DNA of 44,544 nucleotides from contig NZ_DAHVNP010000032.1 in the NCBI RefSeq assembly GCF_027319265.1, positions 1 through 44,544 of the forward strand, read 5' to 3'. The translations under genes were made by a program, and so were the position numbers. Source of the DNA: Ferrimicrobium sp. (GTDB taxonomy: Bacteria; Actinomycetota; Acidimicrobiia; Acidimicrobiales; Acidimicrobiaceae). Positions 27,263-44,544 of this stretch are shown here, piece after piece; the stretch's first letter is position 1; every line of letters begins with the position of its first letter. Under the pieces are notes generated by a model. That model saw only the letters and a list, made by a program, of their open reading frames with translations. It searched no databases and had not been told where the DNA came from.

Positions 27263-27696
27263 TAGCTCACGATCCCGAGGACTGACAGATAGGCAGCTTT
27301 TGCCTGGCTGATGACCGATGCGTTCGCCTCGTAGCTATATTGAGCGGTGACGAGATCCCCAAGTTGGGTACCGAGGTTGATCCCTGGCTCCTTGACCATA
27401 CCCTGTTTGTTCGCCAGCGTGGAACTTGGATCATAGGTCAATTCACCGTTGGGTTTTGGAGTAACGATGGAACTCACCTGCACGCCATCACCAAGTGCGT
27501 AGTTGGTAAAATTAGGGATACCTGAAGAGTTGACTGACGGCTTTGGAGCGACCAGCACCTCTTGCTCTTGGTATTGTGGTTGATTGACTCCTGCGATATC
27601 ATTCGCATTCGCGATGTTAGAACCGATCGAATTGAGCCAAGTTTGCTCAACGTTCACGCCAGTTCCTGCGATATTGATTGCACCGAACAGCGACAT
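27262..27696 (-). CDS. flgC: flagellar basal-body rod protein FlgC
   Basis: This 144-aa proximal-rod subunit has the N-terminal rod motif (GAINIAGTGVNVEQTWLNSIGSNIANAND) and the C-terminal one (LGTQLGDLVTAQYSYEANASVISQAKAAYLSVLGI). The usual YEP-type middle is seen in QPQYQEQEVLVAPK. The ATG overlaps the flgB stop (ATGA), with GGGAGG upstream. Confidence 0.96.
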   Translation of the reverse strand: MSLFGAINIAGTGVNVEQTWLNSIGSNIANANDIAGVNQPQYQEQEVLVAPKPSVNSSGIPNFTNYALGDGVQVSSIVTPKPNGELTYDPSSTLANKQGMVKEPGINLGTQLGDLVTAQYSYEANASVISQAKAAYLSVLGIVS

Positions 27697-28034
27697 CAGA
27701 ATTGACCTCCCATTGCTCCTGAGAGGACCTGGAATTGTGTGGTGAGTTGATCGGAGACGGCTTGGTACGCCAGCGCATTGTTCTGTAACCGAACCAACTG
27801 GTTGCCCATAGAGACATTGTTGCCATCAAGTGATTCCGCGTTTGTCGACGGGGTCAGTGTTGCTGCTGCAGTCCCCCCATTGGCCAGCGCATTCGAGAGC
27901 GAAGACTGGAAGGAGACGTTGGTCGCTTGGAACCCTGGCGTATTGACATTAGCCATATTGTTCGCAATCGCATGCTGTTGCGATGTCAATCCATCAAGAG
28001 CAAACTGGAGAGCCTGAATCGAGGTAGAACCCAC
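27696..28034 (-). CDS. flgB: flagellar basal-body rod protein FlgB
   Basis: This 112-aa rod subunit is the first gene of the long operon. Rod signature: LQFALDGLTSQQHAIANNMANVNTPGFQATNVSFQSSL, and a C-terminal helix with NNALAYQAVSDQLTTQFQVL. The start is GTG at 28034, with AAAGGG upstream. The long untranslated stretch before it (28035-28404) is the likely control region of the whole ~21-kb unit. Confidence 0.95.
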   Translation of the reverse strand: MGSTSIQALQFALDGLTSQQHAIANNMANVNTPGFQATNVSFQSSLSNALANGGTAAATLTPSTNAESLDGNNVSMGNQLVRLQNNALAYQAVSDQLTTQFQVLSGAMGGQF

Positions 28035-28404
28035 GGTAGCGCCCTTTCAAAGAAAAGCTATCCGTAGCCCACTGCCGAGCGATCCGTGCCCGTAGGAATA
28101 GCTTCGGTTCACCCATCGACCCACTTAAATAACTTTTGTAGATGGGTGCCATTGCATCACATTCACCGCCGGCAAGCAACCGAGTAGAAGCAAAAGGGTC
28201 GAATGGCCGCACTGGAACAAAGCTATCAAGGCAGCTTGATACGCGTTCTGAAGTAGTGGGACGAAATCACTGGCGAAGATAAGGAAAATCCGTAAGCAGG
28301 ATGAAGGATTTCAAGCGAGTAATTAAGTGGTGGTGACCGCTCCTTCGAGCGAAGAGAAGTACTGCCAAGAGCGAACGGACTAGGCGTACCGAAGACGACA
28401 CCAG
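28035..28404 (-). promoter_or_regulatory. upstream control region of the flagellar operon
   Basis: This 370-bp stretch has no convincing gene. Two inverted repeats stand out: CACCCATC (28110-28117) with GATGGGTG (28141-28148) around an AT-rich centre, and TATCAAG-GCAG-CTTGATA (28224-28241). On the minus strand the first encloses AAAAGTT, 10 nt, GTCGATGG, which is loosely like a sigma-28 site but with spacing that is too short. No sure promoter can be named. Confidence 0.5.
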
Positions 28405-28683
28405 TTAGGCGAGTACGTCGATCAGTACAATCCGCTCGGGGTCCTTCATGCGAGAGTATCGCAACACCGTTGAAAATGCGTCCATGCGTGAACGCAACTC
28501 CTCACTCAACTCCTGCGTACGAAGAACAAGCGACTCCGAACGATCCCGCAAGACCCGAGGCAGATGGACACTTGGCTGCTCATAGCAGAAGCTCGTCGTC
28601 ACCACCCTGCCGGTGGCGAGGGAGTCCGCAACGGCGTTCAGATGCTCCTCGTACGCATCAAGATAGGCGAGCCACTCATCCAT
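28405..28683 (-). CDS. small helical protein in the FliT position downstream of fliS
   Basis: This 92-aa acidic and basic helical protein starts within the last 8 bases of fliS, so the two are co-translated. In many flagellar loci the gene after fliS is fliT, the FliD chaperone, or a FliT-like protein. Size and helical content suit that, but I see no clear FliT sequence signature, so the role is inferred from context. Confidence 0.7.
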   Translation of the reverse strand: MDEWLAYLDAYEEHLNAVADSLATGRVVTTSFCYEQPSVHLPRVLRDRSESLVLRTQELSEELRSRMDAFSTVLRYSRMKDPERIVLIDVLA

Positions 28684-29056
28684 CCGCGTTCACCAACACC
28701 GCTGCCTGACGCCAAGCATTCATCAGTGGGCGAAGCACCGCCTCAGCCTCCGCGAGCAACTCGCGCTCCTTGGCGAGGTTCGAGCGAACGAGACGATCGA
28801 GCGAGTACTCATACAGTCGCCGAATATCACTCGCACCATCCCACACTTCGACCTGCAGGCAGTCGCGGAGTAAGGCCACAACCGCCTGTGCATTCTTGAG
28901 TCCACAGTGGATCTCATGGAGATCATTCTTCTCGTAACCGCTTAGTGCGCGGGCGAGAGAGGCATCTAACTGGTCGATTACCATCAACAAACGCGCAGAT
29001 GGCGAGGCTGTCTGTACAGCGTTGATCATATAGCTGCGTCTACCCGAATAGACCAT
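28676..29056 (-). CDS. fliS: flagellin export chaperone FliS
   Basis: This 126-aa chaperone binds the C-terminus of flagellin in the cytosol. The family N-terminus is clear (YMINAVQTASPSARLLMVIDQLDASLARAL) and so is the C-terminal VRSNLAKERELLAEAEAVLRPLMNAWRQA. GAAAGGATG serves as ribosome-binding site. It is transcribed away from the glycosylation island, from a sigma-28-like promoter about 125 nt upstream. Confidence 0.95.
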   Translation of the reverse strand: MVYSGRRSYMINAVQTASPSARLLMVIDQLDASLARALSGYEKNDLHEIHCGLKNAQAVVALLRDCLQVEVWDGASDIRRLYEYSLDRLVRSNLAKERELLAEAEAVLRPLMNAWRQAAVLVNADG

Positions 29057-29522
29057 GGGACATCCTTTCTACAGCAACTGGGCAGTCTGGGCAACAGCAC
29101 CGCTTCGACAGGTCTTCCGTGGACCAGTCCACTCGTGATCTCGACGAGATCGGGCGCGGACGCTTCCCACCATGGCTCTCCTATCGGCACGGAATAAGCT
29201 CTTCCTTACTATAAATTCAGGCCATGTCGGTGAATTTGGGAACACTTCAGTGGATTGACCCCAGTGACTTCAGTGTCTCGTTTCTTGAGTAGGTTCACCT
29301 TTTAACCTCGCCACACTCGCCCATCCCCACGAGAACCCCTATGAATGACCACGGGATTACGTTCCACAACATCACGCACAGACTTTCCCAGATCTCAGTC
29401 CTAGTCCCTCAAGGAGTTGGTCGAGGCGTCAAATACTCGAGCCACCTTATAAAGCTAACCTCCAACTGTGTCGACACTGAAGTGTCCTGTAGTCCCTCAA
29501 GTTTGAGAAAGAAGCTACGCTT
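29057..29522. promoter_or_regulatory. divergent regulatory region between fliS and the GT2-TPR gene
   Basis: This 466-bp region has no gene I can support. It contains the sigma-28-like promoter for fliS (29181-29208) and a 15-bp palindrome GATCTCG-A-CGAGATC (29137-29151) in the fliS leader. It also holds three copies of ACTTCAGTG (29244-29252, 29267-29275, and inverted at 29475-29483) and a direct repeat TAGTCCCTCAAG (29402-29413, 29490-29501). The repeat density suggests binding by a regulator. Confidence 0.6.
29181..29208 (-). promoter_or_regulatory. sigma-28 (FliA/SigD) type promoter for fliS
   Basis: On the minus strand TAAGGAAG (29208-29201) is followed after 12 nt by GCCGATAG (29188-29181). 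The -10 matches the known consensus GCCGATAA in 7 of 8 positions; the -35 is weaker (TAAG for TAAA) and spacing is one base longer than ideal. Position fits a leader of about 120 nt to the fliS ATG. Confidence 0.65.
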
Positions 29523-31415
29523 ATGCCTGCCTCCCCTGTCGTTGTGGTAGCCATCCTGGCCGACGAAAGTACTCGCAAGGCGACAAAACGCTATTTGAAC
29601 GAGGTCACTCCTGCAAGCTTTCCAGTAGTCTGTCTCCTCGAAGGTGGCGAACTCGACCCTAGGGATCGGACAAAGATCGAAAGTGCCGAACACGCGGCGA
29701 TCCTCACGCCCGACTCCTCCCTCCCTAGTGGCTGGATCGATGAATTGATGTGGGTAGCACGCCAGCACCCTGATCACGTTGTTGTCCCTGGTTCTCCAAA
29801 TGTGCTAGGCCCACAACGCTTCATCCTGGAAGAGGGCCAATCGGTCGCACGACAGGGAGACCAAACCGTTTACGCCCGTGAACATCGCAAGGCGTTCTCT
29901 CGCATCGTAGAGCAGATTCAGTTCGCAACCGACCTTGTGGCTATGGCACCAGGGCCTTGGGTTGGGGAGGTTCTGCGGTCATCTCCTGGAACCTGCTTCG
30001 ATGTCTTCAAAAGGCTATACAAGGACCGCCCCCTGTTGCTTGCTCAAGGTGCAGCGGTATTTTCATCAGTAGTCAAACAACGCCTGATCCCTGGCGCTAA
30101 GAGAACGGCCCCTCTGGTCTCATTATGCATGATCATCAAAGACGAAGAGGGGTATCTTGGTGATGCCCTGGACTCGGTAGAGGGGTTGGCTGATGAGATT
30201 ATCGTCTACGATACCGGATCCAGCGATCGCAGCATTGAGATTGCCGAGAACTACGGCGCCAAAGTAATCCTTGGCCAATGGCGAGATGACTTCGCATGGG
30301 CAAGGAACCAAACCCTAGATCATGCGAATGGTCAGTGGATTCTCTGGATCGATGCCGATGAACGCGTGCGAGGTGACATAGACGCACTTCGGCTTCGCCT
30401 CGAGGACCCCTTCGCTCCCTATGAGTCCTATTCGATCCGCATCCAAAATGCAACAGGGGCAGGGCTAACCAGTATGGAGCACTTTGCTAACCGTATCTTC
30501 CGAAGAAAGGACTGCTACTGGCGAGGAGCAATCCACGAGACTGTATGGTATCGAGACAACCGTCGAACGAACTATACCATCAGAGCACCAGAACTGTATT
30601 TGGAGCACCTTGGGTATCTCGATGCTTCGCTTGCCGGTCGCAACAAGGCAGACCGCAACATCAGCGTTTCCGATCAGAATGAGTCCGCAGACTCTCTCGA
30701 AGAAGTTGCCCTCCATAAAGCTCGTTCCCTCACGATGGGAGGTCGTTTCGATGAAGCGATTGAGCTGCTTGAAACCAAGGTTCTCGGTCGCGACTCCCCT
30801 GCCATGCACCGAATCGCGCTTTTGATGCTTGGGGTCTGGTATCGGGTGGTCGGACGCTATGACGATGCGAAAGCCATTCTTGCTCAATATGGTGATGCCG
30901 AAATAGATCCAGCCTTTGCCGAGGCCGAGTATGCACAGCTTGCCTTTGTCCAGGGGGACTTTGACGAGGTGCTACGTCATGTGAATCAAGTCACACACTT
31001 CGTTGCTGATCGCGATGGCTTAACCGTCTCCCCCGATAATCTTGCTGGCCTCAAGGCACGGGCACTGGCACAGCTTGGCCGGCACGAGGAAGCAGCACAG
31101 ACAATTCTTGGAGCTCTACAGCGAGGAGTGTTAGAGGTTCATCTTGGAGAACTCATCGACTGGATGGACCAAGGTGGCGTACCGATGTCGGAACTGGCGA
31201 AGGCTATCCCTGATAGTAAGAAGACGCTAGTGCTTGCCCAGCTCCTACAGATCGATCCAGTAGTCGCGGATCAGGTATTAGTGGAGCTCCATGATGCAAA
31301 CCCCACGGACCTTGCGATTCTGGCGACCGCCTCGCTCGTTGCGAAGCAGCTTGACTCGCAACGTCAGACCTCTTGGCGAGCGACACTGGCTAAAGCGGGT
31401 CTGGTGAACGCTTAG
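29523..31415 (+). CDS. glycosyltransferase family 2 with TPR repeats, probable flagellin glycosyltransferase
   Basis: This 630-aa cytosolic protein has three parts. The N-terminal domain (1-190) is of unclear type, with VVVVAILADEST and PDSSLPSGWIDEL that look like a second, degenerate GT-A fold. A GT2 domain (about 195-390) has LVSLCMIIKDEEGYLGDALDSVEGLADEIIVYDTGSSDRS and the metal-binding WIDADER. The C-terminal half (about 395-625) is helical repeats of TPR type. SunS-like GT2-TPR proteins beside fliC are known flagellin glycosyltransferases in several Gram-positive genera; the function here is inference from that. The stop overlaps the convergent stop of the next gene (TTAG). Confidence 0.85.
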   Translation: MPASPVVVVAILADESTRKATKRYLNEVTPASFPVVCLLEGGELDPRDRTKIESAEHAAILTPDSSLPSGWIDELMWVARQHPDHVVVPGSPNVLGPQRFILEEGQSVARQGDQTVYAREHRKAFSRIVEQIQFATDLVAMAPGPWVGEVLRSSPGTCFDVFKRLYKDRPLLLAQGAAVFSSVVKQRLIPGAKRTAPLVSLCMIIKDEEGYLGDALDSVEGLADEIIVYDTGSSDRSIEIAENYGAKVILGQWRDDFAWARNQTLDHANGQWILWIDADERVRGDIDALRLRLEDPFAPYESYSIRIQNATGAGLTSMEHFANRIFRRKDCYWRGAIHETVWYRDNRRTNYTIRAPELYLEHLGYLDASLAGRNKADRNISVSDQNESADSLEEVALHKARSLTMGGRFDEAIELLETKVLGRDSPAMHRIALLMLGVWYRVVGRYDDAKAILAQYGDAEIDPAFAEAEYAQLAFVQGDFDEVLRHVNQVTHFVADRDGLTVSPDNLAGLKARALAQLGRHEEAAQTILGALQRGVLEVHLGELIDWMDQGGVPMSELAKAIPDSKKTLVLAQLLQIDPVVADQVLVELHDANPTDLAILATASLVAKQLDSQRQTSWRATLAKAGLVNA

Positions 31416-31732
31416 GAATCCGAGGGGCGATTGGACTCCTCGATTGCTCGGAGTGCATCCTCGAGATCGCTCCAAGCTTGAAGCTCAGAGAGAATCTCCT
31501 CGTCTGGAGCATGGGCAATGTCTGTGAGCCGATGCCAACCAACCCCAGCTTGCGTCCGTGACATCGCTAGTAGGTCTTGTTGAATCTCCTGTGCTAGCGC
31601 CTGTATGCAATGAATCTCCAATAACTCTACATCCTTGAACCGTGCACCACACTTACAAACACAGGTCGTGTAGGTGCCCGGATCCGCTTGATGCCCTGTC
31701 GCTACATGATCTAGCTTATGCTCACGCTCCAC
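31412..31732 (-). CDS. small Cys/His-containing protein of unknown function
   Basis: This 106-aa protein has a possible zinc site: CVCKCGARF followed by IHC, loosely C2H2-like, and acidic helices towards the end (EILSELQAWSDLEDALRAIEESN). I start it at GTG 31732, with GGAGAGG 10 nt upstream, overlapping the methyltransferase gene by 11 nt; the frame continues upstream to 31897 only inside that gene. Its stop shares bases with the stop of the convergent GT2-TPR gene. I recognise no family; it is probably co-expressed with the methyltransferase. Confidence 0.65.
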   Translation of the reverse strand: MEREHKLDHVATGHQADPGTYTTCVCKCGARFKDVELLEIHCIQALAQEIQQDLLAMSRTQAGVGWHRLTDIAHAPDEEILSELQAWSDLEDALRAIEESNRPSDS

Positions 31733-32612
31733 GAGACAACACCTCTCCAAGTTGGCGAAGCGAATGGCCCCAATCGCCAAGACGATACTCATCTCCAAAT
31801 GGGTTGTTCGGGCGATCAAGTGGCCTTGGAAAGAGGTGCTGGCAATCAGTGAACTCCCAGTCTGCTTTGCGTACCAAGGTGACTTCGAGCACGTCATAAC
31901 CCATTACTCCATCAGCGAGTGCTCGAGCTCCATAGTTATTGGCATGGACATGGACGATCTGGTGGGTGCCAAACAGGACTTCTAGAGAACGATAGACCCG
32001 CGCTTGGAACGCATGATCCTCCACAATGCGTAAGAGGTGATGTAACTCCATGACGATTTGGCTAAACGGTGCGAGGTCGTGGGGTCTAAGTTGCGGCAGT
32101 ATGTCCCACTCCCCTCCCTCGATGTCGATGTTAAGAATGAGATCATCTCGGGTCTCATTGTGGTGGGTCGCAAGCGCATCTCCAAGACTGATCATGGTCT
32201 CGCTGGTCTTAGCGCCAAGTCCTAAACGATAAAAAACTGTCTCGCCTTCAACAGGAGGTGGCGCATCGATCGTATGGTCATATTGATAGACACGATTGTT
32301 CCTCATAGCCATCGCCTGATCCCACGTAACCTCTTGTCCAATGCCAAAGTTGTAGGCAATGGTGTTGGCGAGACCACGGTCAACCATCACGTAGCCTCCG
32401 TCGTTGGCTCCACCGACCCTGATGAACTCAGCACCATAAGGAGTCATGGGGGTAAGAAGGTTCTGAAGTTCCAATAGGGCACCTATATCCGTTGGCGCGA
32501 GAAACCGTGGACCCTGTTGGGCAACAAACGAAAGGTAAGCGATCTGTTCCTCGAGGGTTGCTTGACGCTCACGCAAGTGATTGAGAACAGCGGCGACTTG
32601 GGCATCCATCAT
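31722..32612 (-). CDS. FkbM-like SAM-dependent methyltransferase
   Basis: This 296-aa protein carries a methyltransferase core with RVGGANDGGYVM (65-76), YNFGIGQEVTWDQAMA (87-102) and LILNIDIEGGEWDIL (158-172), the last being the FkbM-type KIDVEGAE-like motif. Such enzymes often O-methylate sugars. Placed among glycosyltransferases next to fliC it may methylate the flagellar glycan (inference). AAGGAG precedes two consecutive ATGs; the second (32609) has the better spacing. Confidence 0.8.
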   Translation of the reverse strand: MMDAQVAAVLNHLRERQATLEEQIAYLSFVAQQGPRFLAPTDIGALLELQNLLTPMTPYGAEFIRVGGANDGGYVMVDRGLANTIAYNFGIGQEVTWDQAMAMRNNRVYQYDHTIDAPPPVEGETVFYRLGLGAKTSETMISLGDALATHHNETRDDLILNIDIEGGEWDILPQLRPHDLAPFSQIVMELHHLLRIVEDHAFQARVYRSLEVLFGTHQIVHVHANNYGARALADGVMGYDVLEVTLVRKADWEFTDCQHLFPRPLDRPNNPFGDEYRLGDWGHSLRQLGEVLSRGA

Positions 32613-32644
32613 CTAACTCCTTAACTGGGTTACTGAGAACATCT

Positions 32645-33928
32645 TTATAACGACTCTGTGCTCTTGGCCTCTAGAAGAGCGCCCGTATCGATATCGATCC
32701 AACGGTCAAAAAACAGCGTGTCAGCATAACTGGTACCAAAGACGCGATCAAGGGCAAGGAGGAGTGCAAGTCGAGGAGTTGTGACACCCTTCTCTGCTCT
32801 GGCAAGTGCTGCTACTGAAAACCGAGTCACCTTCGCCAATTGGCGTAGGCTCATCCCTCGTTCCTCTCGTGGCCTGCGTAACGATTCACCAAGGGATTCA
32901 GACCAAGCGATGCGAGGGTAATGACGTTGGTAGAAGTCGGTAACCACGAGCTGGTCGCCTCGTTTGATGGCGATCCGAGATGATGGTTTGAAATCCGAGC
33001 GCAAGTTAGATCCTAACAGCGTATCAAGAACCTTCATCTGTTGATAGGTTGGATGAGCAGCACAACGTTCCCATGTCCATATCGTGTAGGAGCCTACCCC
33101 GCACCTCTTTGCCACCGTATTAACTTGCATCCCGATTTTGATTCTCGCATGCTTCAAGGATGTGGCATGTCGTGCGGTCCAACAAGGCTGTTTAGCCTTT
33201 TTGCGGAGAGGCTTGTTATGATAATTGGAGGAGTCGCGTTGCGCTGGCCTCTGACGATCCACAAAGAGATCTTTTAACTTCAACGTCCAGTCATCAAGAT
33301 AATACTGGTGGCTAAAGTCGCTCCCGGGTAGCTGATCGATTGAGCGCAGAAACCGTAGCGATGGCTTTGCTGTAGCGTTCTCTACCTCGACTAGCCATGC
33401 ATAGGAACATCCCAGTATCCCGCTTAATTTGAGTACAGAGTACCCGTAAGCCTCACGCTCCCTCCGAATTACTTGCCCCTTGTCTCGGTTCCACACATTC
33501 TCATTGAACCGCTGGTAAAATTCAGTGGCCTCTTCGTATGCAGCCTGCGTGGAGCAAATTGGTACATCGGGCAAAAAATGTTCGTGGAACCTGGTGCCGA
33601 GTAGTTCGTCAAGACTTACAAGGTACCCATAGGTTGGAGAGGATTGATAGCATGTCTCCCATGTCGAGAGCATCACCAAGGAGATGCCCAATTCGGATGC
33701 AAGATGGCGTGAGGACACATCAAGTGCTAAGCGTGCGAACCGTAAGCTAGCGCCATAAATGGCTCCCCACTCCTGAGAAGGAGGTGCGTCTTGTCGTTCT
33801 CCACGCTTCTCTCTGTCCCGTTTGCGTTGCTCTCTAGCGGCCGGATCAAGCGTAAACCGGGCATCAGGTGCGAGTTGGGCGTGGAAGGAGGATTCCAAAA
33901 TCTCGTCAATACTAGTCAGTATCTGCAT
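32645..33928 (-). CDS. multi-HTH (XRE-like) protein, main part after an apparent frameshift
   Basis: This 427-aa frame holds four complete XRE/Cro-type helix-turn-helix modules in a row, at about residues 58-108, 152-205, 262-312 and 365-415. Each has a recognisable LASELG/LSGILG/VAKRCG/LAKVTR turn, a W or V-E recognition part and a closing (L)LG-type helix, followed by a short phenylalanine-rich link (RFHEHFLPD, DFSHQYYLDD, NLRSDFKPS, YADTLFFDRW). The frame's beginning (MQILTSIDEILESSFHAQLAPD) is the second half of a fifth module whose first half lies in the preceding frame (33912-34154). No ribosome-binding site precedes ATG 33928, so it is unlikely to start there. No other domain is visible. 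Role unknown; DNA binding is expected. Confidence 0.7.
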   Translation of the reverse strand: MQILTSIDEILESSFHAQLAPDARFTLDPAAREQRKRDREKRGERQDAPPSQEWGAIYGASLRFARLALDVSSRHLASELGISLVMLSTWETCYQSSPTYGYLVSLDELLGTRFHEHFLPDVPICSTQAAYEEATEFYQRFNENVWNRDKGQVIRREREAYGYSVLKLSGILGCSYAWLVEVENATAKPSLRFLRSIDQLPGSDFSHQYYLDDWTLKLKDLFVDRQRPAQRDSSNYHNKPLRKKAKQPCWTARHATSLKHARIKIGMQVNTVAKRCGVGSYTIWTWERCAAHPTYQQMKVLDTLLGSNLRSDFKPSSRIAIKRGDQLVVTDFYQRHYPRIAWSESLGESLRRPREERGMSLRQLAKVTRFSVAALARAEKGVTTPRLALLLALDRVFGTSYADTLFFDRWIDIDTGALLEAKSTESL

Positions 33929-34154
33929 AGTGGGAAACTGAATTCCATTCTCGATGGCACAAACCTTCCAAGAGAGTACCGAGGTTAGAGGCCAGGCCTG
34001 TCTGTGAGTAGCCCTTTGACTTACGGAGGGACCTTAGTGCTTGTGCGTACTCAAACGTCCAAGGCACTCTTGCCTCTTGGACTTTGCTCGTGTTCGATAG
34101 GGTCCGTTTGCGTGGTCTAGCTACGGATTCGGGTTGTCGAGTTGTCGCAGTCAT
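33912..34154 (-). pseudogene. 5' part of the multi-HTH gene, separated by a frameshift
   Basis: This 80-aa frame is coupled to the GT4 gene (ATGA overlap) and has a good GGAG ribosome-binding site. A basic leader (RPRKR) is followed by the first half of an XRE module (ALRSLRKSKGYSQTGLASNLG), then by 21 residues unlike any HTH. The missing half (LSWKVCAIENGIQFPTMQIL) lies in the next frame and continues into the 427-aa ORF. Joining them by a one-base shift near 33980-33990 would give one protein of about 505 aa with five HTH modules. Mutation, sequencing error or programmed frameshift cannot be told apart here. Confidence 0.65.
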
Positions 34155-35551
34155 GTTTGTGGCTCCGCTCCAACACTAGTAAGCACGTCACCGGAATGCT
34201 CGCCTCTGTGCCCTATGCGTATTTGCTGACGATACCTAGCGTCCTTCCATAGGTCGAGACGTGCCTTTACTTGGGGCTCAAGGCTTTCGTGTAGAGAGAC
34301 CGCATTCGTGGGCAACTCACCAGGATAGAGCTCAAGCAGTGCTTGTGCACCATAGAGGTCCTGGTGATCCAATAGCAACGCAATGGTGTTGGAGAGGTCG
34401 TCGATCCCCCACTCAGTGAGGGTCCGAGCAACTTGGAGTTCAGTCGCATTGAAGTGATCGAGCTCAACATCACCAGTGAAGGCCCCTGCAATCGCTCGTT
34501 CCGCAATACGTGCGCTCTGGCTCCAAGAGAAGGTAGTGCTTGTTGCCAGTCCCGATTGGATTCGTTGCTCATGAACCGAGTCATCAACAAGAGCTAGACG
34601 GATTCCCTGAGTAAGGTCTTCGACAGAGACCTCTAACCAATGGTACCTCCCGCCAATTGGACCATAATTATCAACAGCTGGCTGATCGCTAATGGCGACA
34701 GAGGCTTTAACCAGAATGGCATTGGTGTCGTTTGCATAGTCATCGGCGGCACCTCCTCGAGTCAGCACTACAGCCGTGCCGAGACTCATCGCTTCGAGTC
34801 CACCAAGATAGAAACCTTCTGCTCGATAGGGATGCACAAGCGCCTGCGACTCTGCAACAAGCAGATCGAGGTCGTCCCGGCTGAGGCTCTCGCGAAGCAC
34901 TTGGGTAATCTCACCCACGCGGGGGTACAGCTTTACTAAGTCATCAACAAGTGACTGACCTTGATAGAAGGAATTGTTGCCAGATTCTTTAATAACGACT
35001 GAGACCCCGCTGAGCTCGTCATCGTCAAGGGCATCAAGAGCCCGAATGAAGAGATCTATGCCTTTGCGCCAAATTCCACCGCCGAGGAAAAGCAGCTGAT
35101 TGGGCTTCTTGACGGGGAACTTGATCGAAGGCGGTCGCACTCCCAGTGGCACGATTCTGACCTTTTGGGGATCCGCTCCGGCCTCGACCCAACAGGACTT
35201 GACAAAGTTTGTATGCACCCACACTTGATCGACGTTATCCAGGGCCTTGACCCACTCAAGAGGTACACCACCGAACTCCCAGGGTTGGATCACAATGAAG
35301 ATCCGCGAGTTTGGTCGTTCCCAATTGGGTGGCCAGAACTGGCGAATACACACGTCTGCACCATCACTTGAGCCGAGTGGGAAGGGCTCAAGTCCGAGTC
35401 GCGCACATCCAATCTCTACTTGTTCTGGGTCTTCATCCCATGAATTGAGTGCAACGAGATGGCCACGGCTCCGAAGCGCATCTGCAAGGTTGAGATTAAC
35501 GATGCCATAGCTGTTGTCAAAACGAGTATTGCCTTCAAAAACGATTCTCAT
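34151..35551 (-). CDS. glycosyltransferase family 4 (GT-B fold)
   Basis: This 466-aa protein has a retaining GT-B enzyme in residues 1-360. The N-terminal Rossmann half begins MRIVFEGNTRFDNSYGIVNLNLADALRSRGH; the C-terminal half begins at NQLLFLGGGIWRKGIDLFIRAL and has the EX7E motif, E245 to E253 (EGFYLGGLEAMSLG). About 100 extra helical residues follow. It probably adds sugars to the flagellar glycan, given the position beside fliC. AGGAG precedes the ATG. It is read divergently from fliC and leads into the multi-HTH gene. Confidence 0.88.
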   Translation of the reverse strand: MRIVFEGNTRFDNSYGIVNLNLADALRSRGHLVALNSWDEDPEQVEIGCARLGLEPFPLGSSDGADVCIRQFWPPNWERPNSRIFIVIQPWEFGGVPLEWVKALDNVDQVWVHTNFVKSCWVEAGADPQKVRIVPLGVRPPSIKFPVKKPNQLLFLGGGIWRKGIDLFIRALDALDDDELSGVSVVIKESGNNSFYQGQSLVDDLVKLYPRVGEITQVLRESLSRDDLDLLVAESQALVHPYRAEGFYLGGLEAMSLGTAVVLTRGGAADDYANDTNAILVKASVAISDQPAVDNYGPIGGRYHWLEVSVEDLTQGIRLALVDDSVHEQRIQSGLATSTTFSWSQSARIAERAIAGAFTGDVELDHFNATELQVARTLTEWGIDDLSNTIALLLDHQDLYGAQALLELYPGELPTNAVSLHESLEPQVKARLDLWKDARYRQQIRIGHRGEHSGDVLTSVGAEPQT

Positions 35552-35661
35552 AGGACTCCTGTGGTGCGCATACTACCAAAAGCATCGGAGAAACTCATGT
35601 CTTCTTAATGTTGGATTCAGACCTTGATGAGGCTTTCAACCCTCTCTGGACAATTTTCCTA

Positions 35662-35689
35662 TCAAGCTCTGCGCCTCGTGTGTCGAAGA
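35662..35689 (+). promoter_or_regulatory. weak sigma-28-like promoter candidate for fliC
   Basis: TCAAGCTC (35662-35669), 12 nt, GTCGAAGA (35682-35689) matches the sigma-28 consensus in 5 of 8 positions in each half, with near-correct spacing and a leader of about 60 nt. Flagellin genes usually have such promoters, so it is a reasonable but weak candidate. Confidence 0.35.
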
Positions 35690-35698
35690 TCTTAGGGA

Positions 35699-35717
35699 TA
35701 CCAGGTAGATCCTGGTG
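35699..35717 (+). promoter_or_regulatory. hairpin in the fliC leader
   Basis: TACCAGG (35699-35705) pairs with CCTGGTG (35711-35717) around a TAGAT loop, about 20 nt before the strong AAGGAGG ribosome-binding site. It could protect the flagellin message or take part in its control. Function is not shown by sequence. Confidence 0.4.
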
Positions 35718-35754
35718 TTACGTATATGAATACGAGGGAATTCAAGGAGGATTC

Positions 35755-36588
35755 ATGTCCCTATCGGTTAATACAAACATCTCGGCCATTGAGGCGTACA
35801 ATAACTTGAACGCCACTAACAACGCGATGCAAACGTCCATCAACCAGCTGTCTTCAGGCTTGAAGATCCAAAACGCCTCCCAAGGTGCTGCGGACTACGT
35901 GATCTCACAGGGTCTACAGACTCAGGCGAATGGTCTGGGTGTTGCTATCAACAACGGTCAGGATGCCACCTCGGTACTCCAGATCGCCACGGGTGCCATG
36001 AACCAGCAGATCTCGATCTTGCAGACCATGAACCAGTTGGCAACCCAAGCTGCGAACGCTGGCGCGAACAACACCACGTCGAACAACGCCGACCAACAAG
36101 AGTTTGCGGCTCTACAGAACCAGCTGGATCAGATCGCGAACTCAACACAGTTCGGCTCCACTCAGTTGCTCAACGGGACCTATACCGGACAGTCATTCCA
36201 GATTGGTGCTTACGCCGCATCAGTAGACCAGGTAGTGGTGAGCATCGGTAATCTTGGATCAGCTTCGCTTGGTGTCAGCGCGGCATCGGTGAACATCTCG
36301 ACGGCTTCTGCCGCGTTCTCTGCGATGGCATCAGTACAGGCGGCAATCACAACGGTTGCCTCTGCTGAAGCTGCCATTGGCGCGACTCAGAACCAGATCC
36401 AGGACATCATCGCCAACGACACCGTTGCCCAGCAAAACGTGACCTCAGCGAACTCGACGCTGGTCGACACCAACATGGCCAAGGCGATGACAAACTTCTC
36501 GTCCCAGCAGGTGTTGATGCAGGCTGGTGTTGCGATGTTGTCCCAAGCCCAGGCACTACCTCAGTTGATCCTGAAACTAATCCCATAG
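35755..36588 (+). CDS. fliC: flagellin
   Basis: This 277-aa filament protein has the N-terminal D0/D1 part (MSLSVNTNISAIEAYNNLNATNNAMQTSINQLSSGLKIQNA) and the C-terminal D1/D0 part (SANSTLVDTNMAKAMTNFSSQQVLMQAGVAMLSQAQALPQLILKLI). There is almost no variable middle, so the outer D2/D3 domains are absent. I start it at ATG 35755 with AAGGAGG upstream; the frame runs 49 codons further up but without flagellin sequence. It is exported by the type III gate with FliS. The many surface Ser/Thr residues are possible glycosylation sites. A strong terminator follows. Confidence 0.97.
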   Translation: MSLSVNTNISAIEAYNNLNATNNAMQTSINQLSSGLKIQNASQGAADYVISQGLQTQANGLGVAINNGQDATSVLQIATGAMNQQISILQTMNQLATQAANAGANNTTSNNADQQEFAALQNQLDQIANSTQFGSTQLLNGTYTGQSFQIGAYAASVDQVVVSIGNLGSASLGVSAASVNISTASAAFSAMASVQAAITTVASAEAAIGATQNQIQDIIANDTVAQQNVTSANSTLVDTNMAKAMTNFSSQQVLMQAGVAMLSQAQALPQLILKLIP

Positions 36589-36607
36589 TTTCTCCTTACT
36601 CTCACTA

Positions 36608-36640
36608 TGGGCCAGGGATCGCGTATCCTTGGCCCATTTT
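36608..36640 (+). terminator. intrinsic terminator of fliC
   Basis: A 12-bp stem (TGGGCCAGGGAT 36608-36619 with ATCCTTGGCCCA 36625-36636, one G-U pair) with a 5-nt loop is followed by TTTT. It stands 20 nt after the fliC stop and separates fliC from fliD. Confidence 0.9.
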
Positions 36641-36672
36641 GGGTAGTACCTCTTATTTCGTTCTCTAGATCA

Positions 36673-36680
36673 GCCGAAGC
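36673..36680 (+). promoter_or_regulatory. possible sigma-28-like -10 for fliD
   Basis: GCCGAAGC lies 23 nt before the fliD ATG, after the fliC terminator. It matches 5 of 8 bases of the sigma-28 -10 and resembles GTCGAAGA before fliC, but no -35 is visible. Some promoter is needed here because the fliC terminator is strong. Confidence 0.25.
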
Positions 36681-36703
36681 TCATCACAGGCCAAGGAGGT
36701 CAC

Positions 36704-39262
36704 ATGTCTTCGATATCACCAACGACCAGTACTACTTCAACAACTGGAACGACTAGCACCAGTTCCACCTCGTCAAGCACCACCAGTCCCTTCGCGCCTC
36801 CGATCCAATTCAATGGTGTTATCTCAGGCTTAGACACCAGCTCAATCATCAATGCGCTCATGCAGGCCTATGAGCAACCTCAAGTAGATATCCAAAACCA
36901 GATCACTTCATTGAACAACAACCTGAATGACTACCAACAGCTCTCATCAGATTTCCTCAACCTCCAAACCGCAGCCAACAATCTCACCTCAGCCTCCGAC
37001 TGGCAAATCACCTCCGCGACTACCTCGAATCCAGCAGTGGCCACCGCCACGACCACCTCAGGGGCTACTCCCTCAACGATCAGCTTCAACGTTGATCAAC
37101 TCGCCCAAGGCAATGTGCTTGCCGGAGCCAACACACTCAGTTCACTCTCATCCACCGCCGCCTCGGGCAACTTCCTACTCTCTTCTAGCGCGGCAGGTTT
37201 TGGAGTCAGTTCCCTCGCTGGCAGCTCCTTGTCCGTTGGAACCCATTCATTTGATGTCACCCAAGCGCTCACTGGAGGTACAGCCTCGGCAACAACTGCT
37301 CTCGCTAGCTCAGTGACGATTGGCTCCTCGAATGACACTATCGATGCAACCGTCAATGGAACTACCGAAACCTTTACCATCGCTTCGGGCACCTATACCC
37401 CTTCCCAACTGGCCCAAGCGATTAGCACAGCGTCGAGTGCATCCGGCACTCCTCTTCTCAATGCGCAGGTCAATTCACGGGGACAATTAGAAGTTGGAAC
37501 ATCGCTTCTTGGGTCATCGGCCTCACTCCAACTCACCGGCGGGACTGCGCTTTCAACGCTCGGTCTAAGCACCCAATCAACCGCCTCGGTCGGAACCGCA
37601 GGCTCGATTACCCTTGATGGCACAGCTACGGCAATCAACAACGTCCAGTCAGGTTCAACCACCACGCTCACAGACGGTTCCGGTGGCACGATCACCATGG
37701 GAATCGGTGCCTTCGGCATCGCCAAGGGGAGCTTCAGCGCCTCGGAGATCTCCGCTGGTAGTGGCAGCCTGAGTTCGGTGGTCTCTGATATCAACGCCTC
37801 GAGTTCCGGTGTTACCGCGTCAGCGGTACAGGTGGGAACAAATGCGTACATCCTCCAACTTTCTTCGAACACTACAGGAACCGATGGCAACATCACCGTT
37901 GAGTCATCGCCATTCTCTGCGTCGGTCGGGAGCTTCAACTCTATTACCGCAGGCCAAAATGCTGTCATCAGCGTCGGTGGTACCAACGGTTATGAGTTGT
38001 CGTCACAGACCAATACGGTGTCAGGAGTTCTACCAGGTGTAAACATCAATCTGGTATCGGCGCAAGCTCCAGGGTCATCCCCCATCACCCTTTCGGTAAC
38101 TCCGAATGGTGCCAAAATGGCAACAGACGTTCAATCACTCATCACGGCAGCCAACACGGCGCTCTCGGACATCAATAAGTACGCTGGCTATAACGCCGCC
38201 ACCGGAACCGGCGGGCCACTGATGGGCAACTCTGACCTCAACGCCCTGACCTCGCAAATTCTTGGGGTTATCTCGAATGAAGTGGGGTTGAACGGAACAA
38301 CAGCGGCGAATGCAGGGATCACCCTCAACAAGAACGGATCGATCGACTTCAACGCCACCACCTTTGCCCAAGCCTATGATGCCAATCCATCACAAGTCGC
38401 CTCCCTCTTCACTCAGGGTGGCTCACTAAATGCGACTTCTAACGCCTACTCGGGCTCGGTAACCCTTAGTTATGCGGGCAACGCAACCCAAGCAGGCAGC
38501 TACCCTATCGTGATCACACATTCGGCAACCCAAGCGGTAGATACCGGCAGTATTGTCTCAGGTGGTGCAATTACCAGTGCCGAATCGCTCTCCTTCACCT
38601 CTGGTGGCTCAACTGCGACTTATGCAGCAAGTGCTGGCGAATCGCTCACTAGCATTGCAGCGGGCATCAACGCGTCCTTCGCATCGTCGGGTCTTGCGCT
38701 GAGCGCAACAGTCAACACCACCTCATCTGGCTCCCAGCTTGTGGTCTCCTCACAGAACTATGGCTCTGCACAGAGCTTTACCGTGGCGACTAGTGGAACA
38801 ACCGGCCAGCTCGGTCTCACCGCGAACGGCACCACCTATGCGGGAACTGATGTGGCTGGGACTATCGATGGAGTGACAGCGACCGGCAGTGGCCAGTATC
38901 TCTCGGCACCTATTGATAATCCGACGCTGGCCGGACTCTCGCTGCAAGTGACGGCGACTGGAATCACGAGTGCAACGACTCTTGGTGATTTTACCTATAC
39001 CCCAGGCATTGCGGGTGGCATGGGCGCGACAGGGTATGGAGCATCCGATCCGACCACAGGGTCGCTGTCGAGCACGATTTCTAGCCTCAACCAGCAGATC
39101 GCAAGTTTGCAACAACAGTACAACAACTACACTCCGATGATCCAATCAGAGCAGAAGATGCTCCAGCAGGAGTTCGACAACATGGAGACCCAGCTCGGAA
39201 CTCTCAAGAATCAGGGCAGTTATCTCTCGAGTGAAATTGCTCAGCTGCCCACAGGTGGATAG
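36704..39262 (+). CDS. fliD: flagellar filament capping protein FliD (hook-associated protein 2), unusually long
   Basis: This 852-aa protein caps the growing filament. After a Ser/Thr-rich N-terminal tail (1-30) comes the FliD signature FNGVISGLDTSSIINALMQAYEQPQVDIQNQITSLNNNLNDYQQL (about 38-80). The C-terminal conserved helix ends the protein (LNQQIASLQQQYNNYTPMIQSEQKMLQQEFDNMETQLGTLKNQGSYL). Two flagellin-hook-IN-like units are seen in the middle (around TYTPSQLAQAISTA and ESLTSIAAGINASF). Typical FliD proteins are 450-650 aa, so the variable outer part is enlarged. GGAGGT precedes the ATG. Confidence 0.95.
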   Translation: MSSISPTTSTTSTTGTTSTSSTSSSTTSPFAPPIQFNGVISGLDTSSIINALMQAYEQPQVDIQNQITSLNNNLNDYQQLSSDFLNLQTAANNLTSASDWQITSATTSNPAVATATTTSGATPSTISFNVDQLAQGNVLAGANTLSSLSSTAASGNFLLSSSAAGFGVSSLAGSSLSVGTHSFDVTQALTGGTASATTALASSVTIGSSNDTIDATVNGTTETFTIASGTYTPSQLAQAISTASSASGTPLLNAQVNSRGQLEVGTSLLGSSASLQLTGGTALSTLGLSTQSTASVGTAGSITLDGTATAINNVQSGSTTTLTDGSGGTITMGIGAFGIAKGSFSASEISAGSGSLSSVVSDINASSSGVTASAVQVGTNAYILQLSSNTTGTDGNITVESSPFSASVGSFNSITAGQNAVISVGGTNGYELSSQTNTVSGVLPGVNINLVSAQAPGSSPITLSVTPNGAKMATDVQSLITAANTALSDINKYAGYNAATGTGGPLMGNSDLNALTSQILGVISNEVGLNGTTAANAGITLNKNGSIDFNATTFAQAYDANPSQVASLFTQGGSLNATSNAYSGSVTLSYAGNATQAGSYPIVITHSATQAVDTGSIVSGGAITSAESLSFTSGGSTATYAASAGESLTSIAAGINASFASSGLALSATVNTTSSGSQLVVSSQNYGSAQSFTVATSGTTGQLGLTANGTTYAGTDVAGTIDGVTATGSGQYLSAPIDNPTLAGLSLQVTATGITSATTLGDFTYTPGIAGGMGATGYGASDPTTGSLSSTISSLNQQIASLQQQYNNYTPMIQSEQKMLQQEFDNMETQLGTLKNQGSYLSSEIAQLPTGG

Positions 39263-40148
39263 AGTTGATGAAAGTTAACATTCAGCGATCAGCGCCATTG
39301 TGAGTGCCTCTTGACTCTTTCCAGATGGCTAATGATTGGTTGATGATAACGGTGTTTAACTTTTTCAAACATCTGCCTGCGGGCTAATTGCGTCGACTCT
39401 CATGAGCGGTAGTTCCGTTGATCTTCACTGAGAACTGATTTGGAACCAGCCCACAACTTTGTTGGCCAGGGTTATTTTAGATGAAATAACATCGACAACA
39501 TACACGATATCTCTACCTCAGACTTGATTGTATTGATTGACATCCTGGGGTTCGATAACTGTGCACCGACGAATTCATATAGCGGCCACGCCACCCTGAC
39601 CGACGTAGGCAGAAAGGTCTAATCAATTCTCCAAATCCCTATGAACCCAGATCCCCCCAGCATACAATCCTTGAGTCCCTCGGGTTTGAAAACCCTTCTT
39701 ACTCGGACCGCCCGACGTAGCGGCTAGTTTGCAGTGCCACTTTCAGAACGATTAGCTAGTTGAGCTGAGAGTCTGAAATGGCGATCAAAAGATGAATTGA
39801 ACGCGTAGTTTTCTCGATTACCTGAACCTCATCGAATTCTTAGTCGTTAACGAGACAACCCCGAGAATGGTTCCCTATCTACCAAGCAAACACCGAGGGT
39901 GTAGCACTGAGAACTCATTCCTGACCAAAGCAGCGCAGAGGAAGTATAGTAGAGCGCGACGCGGTCTTCTCGAATACAAAGTGAATGGGACTCACGCAGC
40001 CCTCCGGAATTACATGGAACTTCCTAGAGACCATAGACCGCAGTATTGGTAGGTGCAATGAACAGTAGCAGCGTCTTGCCGTCAACCCCTCGAGTAACCA
40101 CCTAGTACAGTCCCTGTCTGTGCTTTACATCGCAGCAGGCGCGGCTAC
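39263..40148. other. 886-bp region without a convincing gene
   Basis: This stretch is more AT-rich and irregular than its surroundings. A 61-codon frame at 39867-40052 (contains QRKYSRARRGLLEYKVNGTH) has no ribosome-binding site and no family I recognise. Visible structures are GTTATTT-TAGATG-AAATAAC (39471-39490), a GGGTT-TGAA-AACCC hairpin followed by TTCTT (39682-39700), and a long inverted repeat GCCACTTTCAGA (39736-39747) with TCTGAAATGGC (39772-39782). It may be decayed mobile DNA. Confidence 0.5.
39736..39782. repeat. inverted repeat resembling insertion-sequence ends
   Basis: GCCACTTTCAGA (39736-39747) and TCTGAAATGGC (39772-39782) are inverted copies with a single extra base, 24 bp apart. 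The spacing is too short for an element, so it could be a solo end, a hairpin, or a remnant. A link to the IS21 fragment at the right edge is possible but unproven. Confidence 0.4.
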
Positions 40149-41171
40149 TTAAGCTTTATATCGCAATAATACTTCCAAAACCTGAATCGCATTCAGCGCC
40201 GCGCCTTTGCGTAAGTTATCCCCCGATACAAAGAAGGCGATCCCATTTGTCGATGACCGGTCGGGTCGAATCCGTCCAATCAGGACTGGATCGATCCCAG
40301 CCGAAGCGAGAGGAGTTGGCAGCTCAACGATCTGACAACCTGGTTCCTGTCTGAGCGCGTCCACGAACGACTCCACCCGGGGAGTATCTCGGCACTCTGC
40401 AACAATCGCGATGCTGTGTCCCGTAAAGACCGGTACCCTTACACAGGTAACATGGCAGCGCAGATCAGCCAACCCCAAAATTTTGCGGGACTCATTGACA
40501 AACTTCTCCTCCTCAGAGGTGTCGCCATCGTGAAGATCCCCTGCGAGGGGGATGACATTTCCGGCAAGTACAGCTGGGAACTTTACCGGAGACATGAAGT
40601 CGACGGCACCGCCATCGAAGGTGAGTGCGGCAAGATTTGGTCGTTGCAGTTCGGCATCAAGTTCTGCCACCCCTTCCCTGCCCGCCCCAGAGGCTGCCTG
40701 GTAGGTCGCAGCGATCACGCGTTCGAGGCCAAAGAGGCGATCGATGATCGCCAATGGAGGCATCGCAATCATCGTCGTGCAGTTTGGATTAGCGATGATC
40801 CCAAGCGGGTGGCGCACAACTTCCCTAGGATTGACCTCCGGAACCACCAATGGGACATTCGGGTCCATCCGATACGCTGATGAGTTGTCGATCACGACCG
40901 CTCCGGCCTCGACGAAGCGAGGAGCGTGCACTTTGGAAGCGGTCGCCCCGATCGAGAAGACGGCGTAATCGATCCCGCGAAGGTCTGCTGTCTTCACGTC
41001 CTCCACCTCAATGGACCGCCCATCAAACTCGATGACGGTACCTGCTGATCGTGGGGATGCAAAGAAGCGAATGTGATCGAATGGAACCTTCCGTTCCTCA
41101 AGGATCTGGCGCATCACACCACCCACTTGGCCGGTTGCACCTACGATAGCAATGGTTCCAGCGCTCCTCAT
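40149..41171 (-). CDS. asd: aspartate-semialdehyde dehydrogenase
   Basis: This 340-aa enzyme reduces aspartyl-4-phosphate to aspartate semialdehyde, the branch point to lysine/diaminopimelate, methionine and threonine. The NADP-binding start IAIVGATGQVGGVM, the catalytic Cys131 in NPNCTTM and the AASGAGREGVAEL segment (YQAASGAGREGV) are present. The length is normal. Its ATG overlaps the lysC stop (ATGA), so the kinase and dehydrogenase are made together. A diverged copy of its last codons (GCTTTA-ATCGCA pattern) lies 31 bp beyond the stop. Confidence 0.97.
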   Translation of the reverse strand: MRSAGTIAIVGATGQVGGVMRQILEERKVPFDHIRFFASPRSAGTVIEFDGRSIEVEDVKTADLRGIDYAVFSIGATASKVHAPRFVEAGAVVIDNSSAYRMDPNVPLVVPEVNPREVVRHPLGIIANPNCTTMIAMPPLAIIDRLFGLERVIAATYQAASGAGREGVAELDAELQRPNLAALTFDGGAVDFMSPVKFPAVLAGNVIPLAGDLHDGDTSEEEKFVNESRKILGLADLRCHVTCVRVPVFTGHSIAIVAECRDTPRVESFVDALRQEPGCQIVELPTPLASAGIDPVLIGRIRPDRSSTNGIAFFVSGDNLRKGAALNAIQVLEVLLRYKA

Positions 41172-43968: not shown

Positions 43969-44544
43969 CTAACAGTGACAACCTCTTCGAACGTGAATCC
44001 CTAATTCGTTCCGAATAACATCGTAAATAGCCCTCTTGGCAAAGATCTGGACGCTCTTCTCCGACAACCGCACTTCGACCTGGGTCCCAACCAGGCGATA
44101 TTGCACCGAGTAATAATGACGGTCAGCGCTCACAATGATGTGATAGTCAATGCTGACCTTGGCCCGCTTCCAGGTGGCAAACTCATAGGGAGTAGCTGGT
44201 AGTGGTCGTAGATGGTCACGTTCAATGCTCTCGAAGAGTTCCTGACGTGAGGTACCAAGGGACTTGGTGACTCTATGGTTGAGATCCCAGGTGAGCTTTG
44301 CAATCGCGGCATTGGCCTCGGCGAGACTATGAAAGTGCTCATTGCGAAGTCGTGCGAGAATCCAGCGTTCAACCACCAGTACTGCCACCTCGACTTTTGG
44401 CTTATCCCGAGGCCGATAGGGACGAGCAGGCAGTACGGTCATTTGATAGTAGGTGGCCATCTCAAGGTAGGTCGCGTTAGGAACGGGCTCATACCGGTCA
44501 GCCTTGGTGACCGCGGTACGCATGCCATCGCACACGATCGCATC
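43969..44544 (-). pseudogene. istA: IS21-family transposase IstA, fragment
   Basis: The minus-strand frame is open to the window edge, so its start lies outside. The visible part is the IstA core and following domain: AIVCDGMRTAVTKADRYEPV, then LPARPYRPRDKPKVEVAVLVVERWILARLRN, which contains the DDE-type Glu, and DRHYYSVQYRLVGTQVEVRLSEKSVQIF. After this the reading runs into 20 unrelated residues and stops; a full IstA would go on for roughly 100 residues more, and no istB follows. It is therefore a 3'-truncated remnant, cut near 44030-44045. Confidence 0.85.

Follow-up and report, generated by a model that had tools for sequence, protein, structure and literature searches.

The window (the whole stretch of DNA analysed, 44,544 nucleotides) is one contig of a 2.88 Mb draft genome in 82 contigs. 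The locus of interest is on its minus strand, where the following genes succeed one another: a gene for a GT4-family glycosyltransferase, an 80-aa ORF whose first 4 nt are the last 4 of the GT4 gene, a 427-aa ORF, a gap of 32 nt, an FkbM-like ORF and a small ORF (Table 1). Beyond the GT4 gene lies the divergent flagellin gene fliC, and the next ORF, whose relatives adjoin fliC in other genomes, is fliD-like and is taken by us to be fliD. The region 31300-36000 contained one promoter-like site and no terminator-like sites, fewer than the means of 3.0 and 3.6 in shuffled sequence. By eye, the small ORF has a Cys/His-rich stretch, and a 34-residue match to it was found in genome G003 (E 7e-5; L048 17263-17364). 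The ORFs at the window ends (92-910 and 43969-44535) look by eye like TnpB-type and other transposase proteins. A PADLOC search returned short helix-turn-helix (HTH) matches only.

Table 1. Features of the locus and their positions in the window.
Feature	Position	Strand	Remarks
GT4-family glycosyltransferase	34151..35551	minus	PF00534 E 1.5e-10; lies upstream in what looks like one operon
80-aa ORF	33912..34154	minus	N-terminal tail and first half of HTH module 1; HTH_31 positions 2-25, E 0.023
427-aa ORF	32645..33928	minus	Remainder of module 1, then modules 2-5, all intact; Pfam HTH_31 in 4 stretches
Module 2	33494..33769	minus	M4-like; net charge of HTH core -2; '33' neither K nor R
Module 3	33182..33493	minus	M5-like; core net +3; contact-equivalent positions hydrophobic/acidic, 5/6 identical in G001
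Module 4	32906..33181	minus	Net charge of HTH core +6; HTH fold in the model; '33' neither K nor R
Module 5	32648..32905	minus	The canonical module; net +5; R at '33' kept
FkbM-like ORF	31722..32612	minus	PF05050 E 0.0019, weak, below cut-off; next gene downstream
Small ORF	31412..31897	minus	Relative in G001, 65% identity; no family above cut-off
GT2 glycosyltransferase with TPR repeats	29523..31415	plus	Converges on the operon

XRE regulators abound in bacteria, as a rule with a single HTH each. The earlier note had read four XRE-like modules, some 95 residues apart, in the 427-aa frame and a fifth split between this frame and the 80-aa frame, and the profile searches agree with this: the Pfam family HTH_31 matches the 427-aa frame in four places (E 1.3e-23), the modules M1 to M5 measure 97, 92, 104, 92 and 86 aa, and M1 starts in the 80-aa frame, continues one base out of register in the 427-aa frame and, read across both, matches HTH_31 with E 1.6e-4. 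The chain belongs by its HTH_31/HTH_3 profile match to the XRE (Cro/CI-like) superfamily. When the intact modules were scanned singly, the E-values were 0.0018 (M2), 1.7e-4 (M3), 0.0029 (M4) and 2.7e-11 (M5), and M5 was the only one of the five modules to pass the curated Pfam cut-off; in a phmmer comparison M5 also matched the regulator ClgR (3f51, E 6.5e-5). Pfam recognised no domain other than HTH in the chain, as had been claimed. The closing link that was said to be similar in each module (LLGTRF..PD, LPGSDF..DDW, LLGSNL..KP and VFGTSY..DRW) shows some likeness but is only loosely common to the modules. Regulators of the ClgR, BldD and DdrO type have one HTH each, whereas the present chain repeats the domain and has nothing else recognised in it.

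The first HTH is frameshifted in the present assembly, and mutation and assembly error are both possible causes. After the frameshift the open frame spans 427 codons. With module 1 broken as in the assembly, the product would consist of four whole modules made from an internal start, or there would be none.

The pairwise scores of the intact modules (M2-M4 51 bits, M3-M5 43, M2-M3 29, M4-M5 21, M3-M4 19) place M2 nearest to M4 and M3 nearest to M5 (E 3e-14 and 5e-11 in a comparison of 8 sequences), and M2-M5 thus look like a duplicated two-module unit, as far as such short and diverged sequences can tell. M1 scored 40.0 bits with M2, 37.0 with M3, 30.8 with M5 and 30.0 with M4. An A-B-A-B-A order for all five modules was considered and dropped, since the M1 scores do not single out one type, and the alternation was limited to M2-M5.

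The earlier note had proposed structure prediction as a check for the HTH folds, and this yielded two of them: the model of M4-M5, based on an alignment of 12 rows, contains two HTH bundles with a helix between them at a mean pLDDT of 81.6 (M4 helices 3-15, 20-27, 31-38 and 46-56; M5 helices 95-107, 112-119, 123-130 and 138-148). The four- to five-helix XRE fold was recovered in the models of M4 and M5 only, and a single-sequence fold of the whole 427-aa chain (mean pLDDT 34.9) gave no usable model of M1-M3. A Foldseek comparison of the M4-M5 model with the PDB gave no match at E <= 0.001. In a second look at the Foldseek matches the M5 region aligned with many XRE regulators, among others, at Z of about 9-10.6, a size that according to the warning of the alignment tool is common for helical bundles; the top row had Z 10.6 and rmsd 2.0 over 69 residues, and 3ivp_C aligned with rmsd 2.0 over 69. 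Ribosome-bound MBF1/EDF1 rank high among the fold matches to the M5 region, and therefore the fold alone is no proof of gene regulation. Among the best 50 rows module 4 was covered by one chain, the cyanase 6xgt_A (Z 9.4, rmsd 2.2 over 72).

These last two matches, the first to MBF1/EDF1 and the second to an enzyme, fit a reading in which the protein is an adaptor: the HTH fold would be kept as an interaction surface, e.g. for organising the glycosylation enzymes or another regulator, and DNA binding would be minor or absent. Fold matches show no function, however, and no partner is known. The residues at the DNA-facing positions bear on the same question. Contact-equivalent positions, including '33', were set by equivalence to the contacts of the phage 434 repressor. 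In the HMM alignment M5 and its G001 counterpart G5 (from the relative described below) have R at '33', while K or R, usual there but not universal, is found in none of the six modules M1-M4, G3 and G4, and in 26 of 34 single-HTH controls. These controls are not independent, since L010 and L067 are the same place, L003 is identical to L004 and there are close relatives among the others. The conserved Glu after the recognition helix is present in all modules (8/8) and in all controls (34/34), and the net charges of the HTH cores from M1 to M5 are 0, -2, +3, +6 and +5. A separate, earlier position reading, which in the controls gave all six positions at 27 of 34 loci with five of these misread (the HMM version was usable at 34/34), indicated that 5/6 contact-equivalent positions are shared with the G001 counterpart in M3, 2/6 in M4 and 1/6 in M5. 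As M4 and M5 share so few of them, no conserved DNA specificity is seen. In the HTH turn of module 3 the window species and G001 are set apart by an indel of 2 residues; this indel, the hydrophobic or acidic contact-equivalent positions of the same module with their high identity in G001, and the negative core of M2 would suit an adaptor. The basic cores of M4 and M5, the net positive core of M3 and the canonical XRE HTH of M5 speak against it, and we consider it rather unlikely. The fold is kept, and it is chiefly module 5 that retains the usual DNA-reading features, module 4 being basic. Five equal DNA readers are unlikely, because M1-M4 are without one usual DNA-contact feature.

Repeats near the locus had been put forward as possible targets of the protein, and this proposal found no support. 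Of the 5 exact copies of ACTTCAGTG in the window, three precede the GT2-TPR gene, at 29244, 29267 and 29475 (stretch 29241-29486), but when 0-1 mismatch is allowed the window contains 11 matches against 10.6 expected, and none of these lies in the GT4-fliC gap. The third copy is part of a 14-bp palindrome (29473-29486) whose 6-bp arms match perfectly and which is the genome's only zero-mismatch site. When up to 2 mismatches are allowed, the palindrome has 17 sites genome-wide vs 30 for the reversed control, so that it is not enriched. Since ACTTCAGTG is at chance frequency and the palindrome is not enriched, their putative role as targets of the tandem-HTH protein is unsupported by these counts.

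A search for homologues with the same repeat, also proposed earlier, recovered a single one: the sole other multi-module protein found is encoded in G001, a MAG of the same genus, at 42% identity. It is cut upstream by the contig end, with three modules visible in the same order and 330 open codons up to that end. Its downstream neighbours are the same as in the window (FkbM-like, small ORF, GT2-TPR), and at the DNA level the 4.1 kb that reach from the module region to GT2-TPR, GT2-TPR included, are 69% identical. Among the 7 genomes covered for the genus, two carry the multi-module gene. Matches in other genomes were found in 14 genomes, of which only G001 matches in several modules, the others being matched in one stretch near module 5; the 14 other phylum-wide matches cover about 57-74 profile positions at module 5, and the five further matches in the window's own genome are likewise all single stretches (E 6.8e-4 to 0.11). 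Profile searches across the class (395 genomes) and the phylum (396), in which scoring was limited to 4 candidates per genome and distant multi-HTH proteins may be missed, gave no second multi-module relative.

The records of mobile elements bear on an origin of the gene as a repressor that came into the operon from a phage or mobile element. Phage regulator families are matched distantly, and one of them, phrog_8, covers M4-M5 in both species; in addition, five viral models align at E <= 0.001 (the best at 3.8e-6, yet with TM 0.33 and rmsd 14); however, XRE domains generally give such matches, no relative was found among 50,697 records of phages and 72,556 of plasmids and none was confirmed in viral contigs, and no phage gene was recognised by eye among the ORFs of at least 130 aa beside the gene. 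We regard such an origin as very improbable.

The coupling to a GT4 gene beside fliC, as the earlier note described it, is true of the window but is not a fixed arrangement. Relatives of the GT4 gene were found in 19 of 42 genomes of the family (E <= 1e-30) and of the FkbM-like ORF in 3 of 42 (78% identity in G001, 60% in G002), and the overlap of the GT4 gene by the XRE gene was seen in the window alone. G001 has no GT4 match at E <= 1e-30, and its XRE-FkbM-GT2 cluster and fliC are on different contigs. The fliC stretches of G001 (12.8 kb) and G004 (14 kb), in both of which fliC is beside asd, contain no GT4, XRE, FkbM-like or GT2-TPR match at E <= 1e-3. G003 and G005 have the GT4 gene with neither an FkbM-like nor a multi-module match, and the one match in G003 is to a single stretch. 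The GT4 ORF of G002 adjoins the FkbM-like one with no XRE gene between them, which argues that the XRE gene is accessory and that the operon can do without it. Judged from these comparisons, the multi-module gene is an accessory part of a rearranging region and not a core flagellar gene.

Further observations concern the flagellar genes themselves. Compared with G001 and G004, the fliC and fliD-like genes are inverted relative to the fliS-side genes and asd (window 27696-41171 vs L086 and L087), and in the window the glycosylation island sits between the two groups. The flagellin gene of G001 (G001:C60:64921-65754; L085, L086) was read with one in-frame TAG.

Rates of change were compared between the window genome (G000) and G001; dS was saturated in NG86 for the XRE pair and differences per codon position were used instead. 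At codon positions 1/2/3 these were 0.465/0.369/0.678 for the XRE gene (301 codons), 0.183/0.115/0.485 for the FkbM-like gene (295 codons) and 0.176/0.117/0.505 for the GT2-TPR gene (630 codons). The values for the XRE gene indicate purifying selection. Its dN is 0.59 vs 0.146 in each of the two neighbours, about fourfold, and the HTH cores are more alike between the species (0.44-0.48) than the linkers and tails (0.24-0.38). Together the data point to past purifying selection on the XRE protein, yet with fast evolution. In four-fold codons with the same residue the third position differs in 0.82 of 33 for the XRE gene vs 0.64 of 76 and 0.58 of 172 for the neighbours, a higher difference that may reflect a greater age of the two XRE copies than of their neighbours, or faster mutation.

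The high dN, the excess at four-fold third positions, the frameshift in module 1 and the occurrence in so few genomes of the genus would all be expected of a decaying gene, i.e. a formerly working multi-HTH protein that in the window's strain is now disrupted, under relaxed constraint and without present function. The long frame that stays open after the frameshift, the open codons of the G001 copy up to its contig end and the smaller number of changes at codon position 2 than at position 3 argue against decay, and an assembly error could account for the frameshift; we judge decay to be unlikely.

The earlier note could match the architecture to no described family. It is right in so far as no five-HTH XRE protein was found in the open-access literature searched, but chains with two and three HTHs have been published. 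In PMC10883916, Cbp1 of Crenarchaeota, which binds CRISPR repeats, is described as having three tandem HTHs that arose by duplication, of which HTH3 recruits Cren7, and Cbp2 as having two tandem HTHs in one chain. The present protein resembles both in its tandem HTH domains within one chain, and its modules, the first of them frameshifted, are mutually similar, as expected where several HTHs per chain stem from duplication in the manner of Cbp1. It differs from these archaeal proteins of CRISPR repeats in having five modules and in lying in a flagellin-glycosylation operon, and no repeat target was found for it; the likeness is one of architecture. Two HTHs per chain are also reported, in PMC8555981 and PMC11172241, for Wmk of the Wolbachia prophage WO and for the repressor phiCDKH01_17 of a C. 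difficile phage, the latter being XRE-type by CDD. Both are phage or prophage genes with two modules and not five, likened here by architecture. The TnsD-like target selectors of Tn7 transposons have several HTHs as well, and are transposition proteins with other domains besides. The phrase 'three HTH domains' is present in the text of PMC12839542 and PMC6090056.

No paper on flagellin glycosylation in Acidimicrobium was found in the open-access literature. In Listeria, GmaR reportedly glycosylates flagellin. The same protein binds the repressor MogR and is tied to flagellar gene regulation (PMC9638930), and GmaR-MogR offers the flagellin-island protein a functional analogy only.

Tentatively, and with somewhat less than an even chance of its being right, we favour a DNA-binding regulator, accessory to the operon, in which one module is canonical and several are derived; its DNA binding, regulatory role and targets are all putative. 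It would be an XRE-derived accessory protein, present in two species of the same genus, that lengthened through duplication, the duplicated unit probably being a pair of modules. Placed between the GT4 and FkbM-like genes, it would most likely regulate the flagellin-modification operon by binding DNA, in which module 5, perhaps together with the basic module 4, may make the contact, and the derived modules may add weak contacts or bind partner proteins. A regulator is supported by the basic cores of M4 and M5 and the arginine kept by M5 and its G001 counterpart, by the G001 relative with its three modules in order and the same downstream genes, by the match of five modules to HTH_31 together with the two modelled folds, and by the purifying selection seen in the codon positions and the 4-nt overlap of the 80-aa start with GT4. 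It has a precedent in Cbp1, whose HTHs split their work between DNA and a partner protein. It is weakened by the missing K/R at '33' in M1-M4, G3 and G4 and the lack of an enriched operator, and by the frameshifted module 1, the G002 gene pair without the gene and a dN about fourfold that of the neighbours. A bolder version of the regulator is a 'polydactyl' XRE protein of five modules, at least M2-M5 being of two alternating types, in which intramolecular pseudo-dimers would read a long composite operator and tie the expression of flagellin-modification genes to the co-translated glycosyltransferase; this we think improbable.

Multi-HTH chains are already known, and the five XRE-type modules are a real and unusual repeat, the first module of which is broken in the assembly and the role of which is putative. 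A five-module chain would show a single-domain regulator turning into a multi-module chain, and would show whether spare modules become protein-binding parts; its setting in a flagellin-modification operon would link surface-sugar genes to regulation in a way that can be tested.
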